From Saccharothrix sp. S26 (lineage in GTDB: Bacteria > Actinomycetota > Actinomycetes > Mycobacteriales > Pseudonocardiaceae), in NCBI RefSeq assembly GCF_021390395.1, contig NZ_JAJUWT010000010.1, positions 124,001-188,000 of the forward strand: a stretch of DNA of 64,000 nucleotides. Direction: 5' to 3'. A program made the translations under genes and the position numbers. The notes beneath the pieces were generated by a model. That model made no database searches and was not told the DNA's origin. It saw only the letters and a list, made by a program, of their open reading frames with translations. Shown one piece after another: positions 21,258 to 42,956 of this stretch (positions are counted from its first letter, which is position 1; every line of letters starts with the position of its first letter).

Positions 21258-21273
21258 TCGAACTGGTGTTCGC
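21258..21273. promoter_or_regulatory. LexA-type SOS box before ruvC
   Basis: TCGAACTGGTGTTCGC matches the actinobacterial SOS consensus TCGAAC-N4-GTTCGA except for the last base. It sits 20 bp before the ruvC start and just after a possible -10 TAAGGT (21251-21256), so LexA bound here would cover the transcription start. ruvC is a LexA target in mycobacteria (known). Confidence 0.75.
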
Positions 21274-41027: not shown

Positions 41028-41043
41028 TCGAACGCGTGTTCGA
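41028..41043. promoter_or_regulatory. LexA-type SOS box between pnuC and the radical SAM gene
   Basis: TCGAACGCGTGTTCGA is a perfect match to TCGAAC-N4-GTTCGA. It ends 8 bp before the radical SAM ATG and lies 23 bp before the pnuC start, so it may repress both directions. The M. tuberculosis homologue Rv2578c is, to my knowledge, a LexA target. Confidence 0.85.
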
Positions 41044-41051
41044 ATGTGGAC

Positions 41052-42956
41052 ATGCGATGGGACGGGCAGAAGGACGGGGCGGACCGACAGCAGGCTCTGC
41101 CGGGATTGCCGGGGCTGGTGCGCAGCGTACGAACTCCCGACTTCGCCGACGTCGTGTTCCACGAGGTGAACGCCAAGTCCGTGCTGAACAAGGTGCCCGG
41201 TGACGGCCTGCCGTTCAACTGGACGGTCAACCCGTACCGCGGCTGCACGCACGGGTGCACGTACTGCCTGACGGGTGACACGCCCGTGCTGCTGGCCGAC
41301 GGCCGCACCAAGCCCATCGCCGACCTGGCCGTGGGCGAGGAGGTGTTCGGCACGTCCGAGGGCCGGTACGTGGTCACCCGCGTGCGGGCGCACTGGGAGA
41401 CGGTCAAGCCCGCCTACCGGGTCACGTTGAGCGACGGCACGCAGGTCGTGGCGGGCGGTGACCACCGGTTCCTCACCGATGAGGGCTGGAAGCACGTTAC
41501 GCCAGGCCGGTGCGACGACTTCGAGGAGCGGCCGTACCTGGTCAAGGGCGCGAGGCTGGTCGGGACGGGCCGGTTCGCCGCGCCGCCCGCGCAGGGCGAG
41601 CCGTACCGCGCGGGCTACCTGTGGGGCGCGGTGCGCGGCGGCCTGCCCAGCCACCCGGACGTGCTGGCGCGCGTGCGCGAGTACGCGGGCGGGCGGGTGC
41701 CGCGGGAGAACGAGCTGGTCCAGTGGCCGACCACGCCGGACGAGGAGTGGTCGAAGGGCTTCCTGGCCGGGCTGTTCGACGCGCGGGGCAGCTCCACCGG
41801 CGGCGAGCTGGTCCTGTCCAGTTCGGACAGCGCCGTGTTCGAGGCCGCCGTGCTGGCGTTGACGCGGTTGCGCGTGTCGCACGTGGTCGAGGTGCGCGGG
41901 GTGCGGATCGTCGGCGGGCTGGCCGAGCGGCTGCGGTTCCTGCACCTGGTGTGCCCGGTGATCCCGCGCGGCACCGCGGTGGAGGGCATGGCGGTGCCCG
42001 TGACGTCCCGGCTCGCGGTGGTGTCGGTGGAGTCGCTGGGCGTGACGCGGACGCTGTACGACATCACCACCGGCACCGGCGACTTCGTGGCCAACGGCCT
42101 GGTCAGCCACAACTGCTTCGCCCGCAACACGCACACGTACCTCGACCTCGACGCCGGGCGCGACTTCGACACCCAGGTCGTGGTCAAGGTCAACGCGGTC
42201 GACGTGCTCAAGTCGCAGCTGCGGTCCAAGCGGTGGCGGCGCGAGCACGTGGCGATGGGCACGAACACCGACCCGTACCAGCGGGCCGAGGGCCGCTACC
42301 GGCTCATGCCGGGCATCATCCGGGCGCTGGCCGACTCCGGCACGCCGTTCTCGATCCTCACCAAGGGCACCGTGCTGTCGCGGGACGTCCCGCTGCTGGC
42401 GCAGGCCGCGTCGCAGGTGCCGGTGGGCATCGGCGTGTCGTTGGCGTTGCTGGACCGCGAGCTGCAATCGGGGCTGGAGCCCGGCACGCCCAGCCCGCAG
42501 GCCAGGCTGGAGCTGGTGCGCCGGGTGCGTGACGCGGGGTTGCCGTGCGGGGTGTTCGTCGCGCCGGTGCTGCCGAAGCTCACCGACTCCGAGGAGGGCC
42601 TCGACGCGCTGCTGGCCTCGATCGCGGACGCGGGCGCGACGGGCGTGACGGTCCTGCCGCTGCACCTGCGGCCGGGCGCGCGCGAGTGGTTCGCCCGGTG
42701 GCTGGTGCGGGAACGGCCGGACCTGGTCGACGACTACCGCGGGCTGTACGCGCGGGGCTCCTATGTGGACGCCCGGTACCGGCGGTGGCTGACCGAGCGC
42801 ATCACCCCGTTGTTGCGGCGGCACGGCTTGGACGCGCGCGGCAAGCGCGACGCCGTCGGGGTGCCCGGCGACGACGAGGGGTTGTGGCCGGAAGGCAGCC
42901 TGCCGTCCTCGGCCCCACCGGCTCCGGTCGTCCAGGAACAGTTGACGCTCCTCTGA
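41052..42956 (+). CDS. Rv2578c-family radical SAM protein interrupted by an intein
   Basis: 634 residues as translated, about 351 after splicing. N-extein MRWDGQKDGADRQQ... to NPYRGCTHGCTY, C-extein CFARNTHTYLDLDAGRDF... . Spliced, the motif reads C-x3-C-x2-C (CTHGCTYC), which binds the [4Fe-4S] cluster that cleaves S-adenosylmethionine. After it come FDTQVVVKVNAVDVL, MGTNTDPYQRAEGRYRLMPG and FSILTKGTV, strongly conserved in the family. Function unknown, but the family is DNA-damage induced in mycobacteria. A perfect SOS box lies directly upstream. The ATG is chosen because MRW begins the known family; no good ribosome-binding site precedes it. Confidence 0.93.
   Translation: MRWDGQKDGADRQQALPGLPGLVRSVRTPDFADVVFHEVNAKSVLNKVPGDGLPFNWTVNPYRGCTHGCTYCLTGDTPVLLADGRTKPIADLAVGEEVFGTSEGRYVVTRVRAHWETVKPAYRVTLSDGTQVVAGGDHRFLTDEGWKHVTPGRCDDFEERPYLVKGARLVGTGRFAAPPAQGEPYRAGYLWGAVRGGLPSHPDVLARVREYAGGRVPRENELVQWPTTPDEEWSKGFLAGLFDARGSSTGGELVLSSSDSAVFEAAVLALTRLRVSHVVEVRGVRIVGGLAERLRFLHLVCPVIPRGTAVEGMAVPVTSRLAVVSVESLGVTRTLYDITTGTGDFVANGLVSHNCFARNTHTYLDLDAGRDFDTQVVVKVNAVDVLKSQLRSKRWRREHVAMGTNTDPYQRAEGRYRLMPGIIRALADSGTPFSILTKGTVLSRDVPLLAQAASQVPVGIGVSLALLDRELQSGLEPGTPSPQARLELVRRVRDAGLPCGVFVAPVLPKLTDSEEGLDALLASIADAGATGVTVLPLHLRPGAREWFARWLVRERPDLVDDYRGLYARGSYVDARYRRWLTERITPLLRRHGLDARGKRDAVGVPGDDEGLWPEGSLPSSAPPAPVVQEQLTLL
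41265..42113 (+). other. Intein in the radical SAM iron-sulfur motif (283 residues)
   Basis: It begins with Cys1 in CLTGDTPVLLADGRTKPIAD (block A), has block B VVAGGDHRFLTDEGW, and ends LYDITTGTGDFVANGLVSHN (blocks F and G), with the next residue Cys+1. All splicing residues are in place: Cys1, block-B His, penultimate His, terminal Asn, Cys+1. The middle has one LAGLIDADG-like motif, GFLAGLFDARGSS, but the first (AGYLWGAVRGGLPS) has lost its acidic residue, so the homing endonuclease is probably dead. Confidence 0.92.

Follow-up and report, generated by a model that had tools for sequence, protein, structure and literature searches.

Intein-containing genes of the Rv2578c family of radical SAM proteins are collected by the curated model NF038136 ("intein-containing Rv2578c family radical SAM protein"), whose model line holds nothing on endonuclease decay, orphan inteins or a LexA box. 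MoaA of the archaeon Pyrococcus abyssi, a different enzyme which we take to be of the radical SAM type as well, carries an intein that, judging from the -3 spacing, should lie at the third cysteine of a CX3CX2C motif. A native disulfide between Cys-3 and Cys1 blocks splicing of this intein (PMC3922620, PMC10663303), and oxidation-sensitive inteins have also been reported for mycobacterial SufB and DnaB (PMC6195587). In the standard account of the homing cycle, as outlined in PMC8966425, splicing is selected through the function of the host protein; loss of the host should therefore release the intein to decay.

The locus described here lies in a 64,000-nucleotide stretch of DNA from Saccharothrix sp. 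S26 (hereafter the window). Its nearest relatives among named records are of the same genus (S. carnea, 94%). The locus belongs to the same gene family as the NF038136 proteins, with the same insertion site and a score above the curated cut-off, i.e. the intein of the window gene as such is of an already annotated kind. The series of orphan inteins found in other Saccharothrix species goes beyond the annotated intein and is not predicted by the standard homing-cycle account.

Anatomy of the window gene

Translation of the window reveals an open reading frame of 634 aa (41052-42956, plus strand). Its residues 1-594 match NF038136 with 820 bits (cut-off 700), and the match to NF038135 reaches 515.5 bits (cut-off 430). 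The intein extends from C72 to N354, between CTHGCTY and CFARNTHTY, and splits CTHGCTY|C in such a way that Cys+1 is itself the third cluster cysteine (Table 1). The CX3CX2C motif of the predicted spliced product is formed by C65, C69 and C355, as judged from the sequence and the empty homologues. Both this position and the assignment as an Rv2578c-family gene with an SOS box agree with a preliminary description of the same DNA. A Cys, Ser or Thr at +1 inside a conserved active-site motif is the usual place of an intein, so the position is unsurprising in itself.

The residues of class 1 splicing are all there, namely C1, the block-B His, the block-F Asp, the C-terminal His-Asn and the nucleophile at +1. 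Block B reads GGDHRF with Gly in place of the Thr of TXXH (Ser in some congeners), a substitution with which splicing may still be compatible. The earlier statement that all splicing residues are intact holds for C1, His, Asp and His-Asn and is slightly too strong with regard to the block-B Thr.

On one side the gene is flanked by YibE/F, nitroreductase, NadR and PnuC genes, on the other by genes for an FAD oxidase and an NTF2-like protein, as seen from translations and tblastn between loci; the names YibE/F, NadR, PnuC, oxidase and NTF2 are our reading of the translations. Altogether, the locus is best described as a LexA-boxed, SplB-like radical SAM gene of the Rv2578c family, coding for a putative enzyme and interrupted at the third cluster cysteine by a class-1 cis-splicing intein. 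The putative function is DNA repair. Streptomyces orthologues are tentatively annotated as SplB in PMC12924846, where the repair link is called speculative, and the spore photoproduct lyase match of the extein model agrees with that annotation. The window copy of the intein is intact and ordinary, and an explanation by a function of its own is not needed for it.

Table 1. Features of the window locus (window positions) and of the free-standing ORF of three related species.
Feature	Position	Strand	Basis
LexA (SOS) box TCGAACGCGTGTTCGA, perfect palindrome ending 9 bp before ATG	41028..41043	+	sole site without mismatch in 64 kb; conserved place in homologues
N-extein, 71 aa, ending in CTHGCTY with cluster cysteines 1 and 2 (C65, C69)	41052..41264	+	NF038135/NF038136 matches; CFAR or CYAR follows at once in empty homologues
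Intein, 283 aa, class 1 type, C1 ... HN, Cys+1	41265..42113	+	intein_Nterm TIGR01445 and intein_Cterm TIGR01443 above cut-off; filled and empty homologues; intein matches of precursor model
Degenerate LAGLIDADG endonuclease part (residues 101-238 of the intein); beta part of the first repeat missing	41565..41978	+	weak PF14528 match under cut-off; I-DmoI/PI-PfuI profile matches; motif spacing; no strands between motif helices in models
LAGLIDADG motif 1, GYLWGAVRGG, acid replaced by Gly	41613..41642	+	Gly in 20/20 filled Saccharothrix loci
LAGLIDADG motif 2, FLAGLFDARG, acid replaced by Arg	41760..41789	+	Arg in 20/20 filled Saccharothrix loci
C-extein, 280 aa and stop; Cys+1 as third cluster ligand, remainder of radical SAM barrel	42114..42956	+	PF04055; NF038135; Foldseek match to spore photoproduct lyase, E 5e-5
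Free-standing, splicing-dead intein-derived ORF	L100:2830-3714, also L102, L103		three Saccharothrix species; behind LexA box

The LexA box

The box was searched for 150-420 bp upstream of the third-Cys codon, with one locus per genome and C-extein stretches as controls (two loci with too little upstream sequence were skipped). It is found with at most one mismatch in 150/155 filled, 31/33 empty and 10/10 interrupted or unresolved loci and in 0/198 controls. The operator is thus present at a fixed upstream place in 181 of the 188 filled or empty orthologous loci. Since TCGAACN4GTTCGA occurs without mismatch only once in the window and none of the controls matches, a chance box was rejected. 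Fifteen of 20 distant empty homologues could be parsed and were counted (the other five were left out): seven have 0-1 mismatch, three have two and five have three. The latter five belong to one genus (g89, probably Streptomyces) and have in common GGGAACN4GTTCTA at nearly the same place; three mismatches alone are not distinctive, as 1/15 controls of the distant set has three as well. Two more LexA-box-like sites with one mismatch each are located in the window at 21258-21273 and 2728-2743 (TCGAACTGGTGTTCGC and TCGAACCCCGGTGCGA, respectively).

LexA regulation of the window gene is predicted from the conserved operator. A radical SAM gene, vnz_31145, which may belong to the Rv2578c family, is listed in the LexA regulon of S. 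venezuelae (PMC9380542). Because the box is as common in empty as in filled genes, it was rejected as a partner of the intein and is assigned to the host gene. SOS control, as far as the operator reveals it, is older than the intein and uninformative on it.

Endonuclease remnant

At what we take to be the catalytic position of the LAGLIDADG motifs, the acid is absent from both motifs of the window intein (RGG and ARG). The preliminary description had recognized the degeneracy and had ascribed it to one motif only. The motifs are separated by 48 residues, as compared with 99-101 in the six full-length relatives measured, i.e. about 50 residues are absent between them. In the precursor model, the stretch between the two motif helices is devoid of strands. 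In an active LAGLIDADG homing endonuclease each motif ends in an acid and both repeats are complete; neither is the case for the window intein.

Intein forms at the same site in relatives

Among the 390 genomes of the family sample, a match at E <= 1e-20 is present in 351, and the NF038136 cut-off is exceeded in 225; the corresponding numbers for the even class sample of 394 genomes are 172 (E <= 1e-50) and 31. Fetched loci that lack the Cys motif in one frame (14 in number) do not enter the motif table, and L001 and L002 were not used. The site harbors full-length inteins (339-350 aa, acids kept where the motifs were read), intermediate ones (317-335 aa, spacing 72-85), half-endonuclease inteins (248-306 aa, spacing 40-61 where read) and, in other genera, mini-inteins (143-166 aa) with C1 and HN|C in place. 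Two Pseudonocardia inteins of 329 and 365 aa have motif spacings of 87 and 112. The inteins of Actinokineospora (g37, L144-L156) keep the endonuclease acids at a motif spacing of 49 aa, short as in their dead relatives.

The full-length inteins appear to move. To place the Pseudonocardia inteins on the tree, four changes are required, of which two are forced. The intein of Pseudonocardia G304 (L186, 350 aa, both acids) adjoins two genera (g130 and g136) of another family, and the mini-intein of G313 (L081, 149 aa) is its sister; endonuclease deletion and horizontal transfer seem to have occurred here side by side. The intein tree comprises 90 filled rows, limited in number per genus. The inteins of Saccharothrix, Umezawaea, Lentzea, Actinokineospora, Kutzneria, Prauserella and Actinophytocola form one clade each, and those of Amycolatopsis require three changes. 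The half-endonuclease inteins look vertical, vertical descent being judged by genus monophyly in the intein tree. Frequent empty and filled sites together with an intact endonuclease had been named beforehand as the mark of a plain selfish element. This pattern exists elsewhere, in genera with both empty and filled species and in the full-length endonucleases of Pseudonocardia G304 and G306, g2, g68 and genera of other families, but not in Saccharothrix.

This range of forms bears on the explanation by a late homing-cycle element, in which the endonuclease was inactivated once the element had become fixed, the intein stays because it is rarely deleted precisely, and the orphans are host pseudogenes caught before decay of the intein. 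Every stage that it expects, from empty sites to mini-inteins, occurs at one site, and the full-length forms spread horizontally. The dN/dS of the intein parts, calculated in seven genera (G002, G021 and the Amycolatopsis inteins not of 292 aa were left out), points both ways. The endonuclease part of Saccharothrix (18 species) has 0.47 vs 0.28-0.30 in the splicing parts and 0.16-0.22 in the exteins, which is in accord with a late homing-cycle element. On the contrary, endonuclease parts devoid of an acid are nearly as constrained as their own splicing parts in Lentzea (0.17 next to 0.14-0.15; 24 species, motif-2 acid lost in 24/24) and Amycolatopsis (0.27 next to 0.28-0.31; 32 species, both acids lost). 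The value for Actinokineospora is 0.32 (16 species; both motifs could be read in 15, all of which retain the acids). Endonuclease parts without an acid can therefore stay constrained. Given also the orphans described below, we consider a late homing-cycle element a serious possibility, with the chances somewhat against it.

A dead endonuclease part could also persist by mutualism with the Hint domain, the LAGLIDADG part being kept for folding of the splicing domain, which would give a constant length without any new function. Endonuclease parts supporting splicing have been reported (PMC8966425), and the intein length is confined to 282-284 aa across the 20 filled Saccharothrix loci. The mini-inteins, which retain C1 and HN|C at the same site, suggest however that the part is dispensable in principle, and mutualism leaves a constrained ORF that can no longer splice (see below) unexplained. 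We regard it as an unlikely explanation.

In five genomes (G250, G252, G122, G102 and G345) the gene is in two pieces, the N-extein with the whole intein in one place and the C-extein elsewhere, in three of them on different contigs. A split intein was rejected for these genomes: the first piece contains the entire intein, and the gene is interrupted precisely at HN|C. In G250, the only one checked for an integrase, a serine integrase (PF07508, PF00239) begins right at the break, and a core ACAA(C/T)TG is common to both ends in 4/5 genomes. Apparently, the two-piece loci (L092:3160-17020, with a 14-kb element, in G250; L093/L094, L095/L111, L096/L097 and L098/L099 in the others, respectively) are integrated elements cutting the gene at HN|C of the intein, so that a second mobile element uses the same codons. 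Since all five cut alleles are filled, the attachment site may extend over DNA of both the intein and the C-extein. Phage Samy uses an Rv2578c-family gene in Streptomyces (PMC12924846).

Orphan inteins in Saccharothrix

Eighteen of the 25 Saccharothrix species sampled have a filled and intact gene, and in the remaining seven the enzyme is broken or lost and the intein or a derivative is kept; an empty site was found in 0/25. The C-extein is frame-broken in G002 and G021. G007 and G024 carry an intact 283-aa intein behind an N-extein that is shortened and lacks the Cys motif, and the C-extein has given way to a short unrelated tail. In G004, G012 and G014 (hereafter the trio), only an intein-derived ORF of 294 aa is left. 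The Saccharothrix inteins form one clade with 100% SH-aLRT, and the intein is vertical and immobile in this genus as far as the tree and the motifs tell. The proposal of domestication rather than active homing is supported for Saccharothrix: both endonuclease acids are lost in 20/20 filled loci of a single intein clade, and intein or derivative is kept after loss of the enzyme.

Further broken-host proteins are present in the protein database, from S. lopnurensis, S. xinjiangensis, S. coeruleofusca, Saccharothrix sp. Mg75, Actinosynnema sp. CA-299493 and one JGI entry, which together with those matching G002, G007, G021 and the trio makes ten. The nine that do not belong to the trio all keep C1, HN and Cys+1, though the latter is an extein residue; this is not what a late homing-cycle element would lead one to expect. 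Host state changes six times on the intein tree (P0011, P0012 and P0049 left out), and at least three of these changes are forced by well-supported branches. Outside Saccharothrix, P0130 (Actinokineospora sp. 24-640) is an intein with a lost host enzyme; P0130, P0142, P0182, P0190 and P0225 have a degenerate N-extein and/or a very short C-extein, and all but P0130 may be fragments.

The gene order of the window, YibE/F-NadR-PnuC-[intein]-oxidase-NTF2, is preserved in G007 and G024, and the trio retains only the outer neighbours (YibE/F-[ORF]-NTF2). The LexA box, assessed in genomes, is kept in 5/5 of these (G007, G024 and the trio) with 0, 0, 1, 1 and 1 mismatches.

Selection after loss of the host

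The ORF of the trio starts 24 bp downstream of the point at which its LexA box begins and has lost the block-B His and the C-terminal HN|C. Of the differences between G004 and G014, 29 are synonymous and 9 non-synonymous (dN/dS 0.13, p 3e-9), distributed over the codon positions as 5/2/31. The nine amino-acid changes are to be compared with 27.8 expected, and 0/20,000 spectrum-preserving neutral simulations gave as few; for the endonuclease core alone the numbers are 2 changes and 8.3 expected (0/20,000 simulations). The ORF is under purifying selection. One antisense frame also has a low dN/dS (0.21, p 6.5e-6), which we take as a shadow of the sense frame because of its four stops. Of 152 columns conserved in intact copies, 39-40 are changed in the trio, with a rate ratio of 0.45-0.47 (below 0.12 in most intact copies); this indicates a passage through relaxation or a changed function. 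The trio represents one event in close relatives.

For the other broken hosts the picture is mixed. Neutrality is not rejected for the G007-G024 pair (15 differences, 8 amino-acid changes vs 10.9 under neutrality, 1,405/20,000 simulations as low), as would suit a late homing-cycle element. Conserved columns are nevertheless still spared in 5/6 pairs of broken-host sisters (p 6e-4 to 2e-8), pairs that share rows, and the P0002-G014 comparison restricted to conserved columns is not significant (p 0.14). It is possible that host loss in the five sparing pairs postdates the divergence measured. The free ORF of the three trio species is constrained with neither host nor splicing left; this and the sparing of columns speak against a late homing-cycle element.

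Cluster formation and a possible redox trap

The preliminary description had reasoned that no cluster can form before splicing. This does not follow, because C1 directly after CTHGCTY completes a linear CX3CX2C in the precursor; a cluster bound in this way would consume the splicing nucleophile. The precursor model has a mean pLDDT of 77.2 and a pTM of 0.53, with segments 64-69 and 356-376 below 50.

The same description had proposed a redox/SOS switch. In such a switch, oxidation would connect C69 (C-3) and C72 (C1) by a disulfide and hold the enzyme as an inactive precursor until the cell is reducing again. The CxxC pair C69-C72 is present in the window gene and, as the search motif itself demands, in every filled locus. 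Its likeness to the Cys-3/Cys1 pair of the P. abyssi MoaA intein makes a redox trap plausible; redox control has been reported for that intein. C-3 is however fixed by the cluster of the enzyme and not by selection on the intein, i.e. its conservation proves nothing, and the LexA box is independent of the intein. Moreover, some orphans retain the intein after loss of both the Cys motif and the enzyme (P0003, P0005, P0008, P0010 and P0038), so a switch acting on this enzyme cannot explain its retention there. Overall, the switch appears quite unlikely.

Proposed role of the intein

The explanation we favor is that the intein of this LexA-boxed, SplB-like gene is no longer only a passenger and that in Saccharothrix it probably has a function of its own in trans, a conclusion held with modest confidence. 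The intein, which in a single Saccharothrix clade of constant length is devoid of both presumed catalytic acids and of part of the first LAGLIDADG repeat, would excise itself after translation and thereby link C69-T-Y to C355 to yield the CX3CX2C enzyme. Judging from the comparative data, its coding sequence would remain under constraint after loss of the enzyme, and within one clade it seems to have become a free-standing LexA-boxed gene. It is this free gene, together with the constraint after enzyme loss, that suggests an own function in trans of the excised or free Hint/half-LAGLIDADG protein. The function might be DNA binding without cleavage, as in WhiA; this is a guess from likeness of fold only. 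In addition, splicing may be slowed down in oxidizing conditions by a disulfide between C(-3) and C1.

A stronger form is offered tentatively, since we would sooner doubt it than accept it. In this form the intein was domesticated for itself in Saccharothrix, and the cleavage-dead Hint plus half-LAGLIDADG protein is, at least partly, the selected product of the LexA-boxed locus. It would repeatedly outlive the enzyme, first with vestigial exteins and intact splicing residues and finally as a free splicing-dead SOS gene, turning from a selfish element into a regulator in parallel to WhiA.

The enzyme was lost at least three times on the tree, the intein frame stays, and the LexA box is kept in the genomes checked. 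If the favored explanation is true, this is a clean natural case of an intein gaining its own function. Empty, full-length, half-endonuclease, mini and orphan states exist at one site within one bacterial class, which makes the persistence of dead inteins directly testable. A literature search in sources lacking most subscription papers recognized no report on orphaned inteins of the Rv2578c family.

Comparison with known systems

The model of the trio ORF (pLDDT 89.6) comprises a Hint fold and a LAGLIDADG part. It matches inteins and, more weakly, WhiA (Foldseek E 6e-4); the absence of WhiA among the 50 VIA matches listed proves nothing. WhiA (DUF199) is described as a LAGLIDADG-related regulator of Gram-positive bacteria and shares the LAGLIDADG part with the trio ORF. 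It presumably has an HTH domain and no Hint domain, in contrast to the Hint plus LAGLIDADG composition of the ORF.

Hint domains outside canonical intein hosts are known as BIL domains, and BIL structures are among the structural matches. Unlike these, the Saccharothrix orphans can be seen to derive from the canonical intein of an orthologous locus, and remnants of the endonuclease are retained in them. The PhoVMA intein (PDB 7qst), also a Foldseek match, has lost the LAGLIDADG acids and kept the domain (PMC8966425), as the window intein has. The accessible part of that report describes no orphan form of PhoVMA, in contrast to the inteins of Saccharothrix, which occur both in an intact host gene and as orphans.
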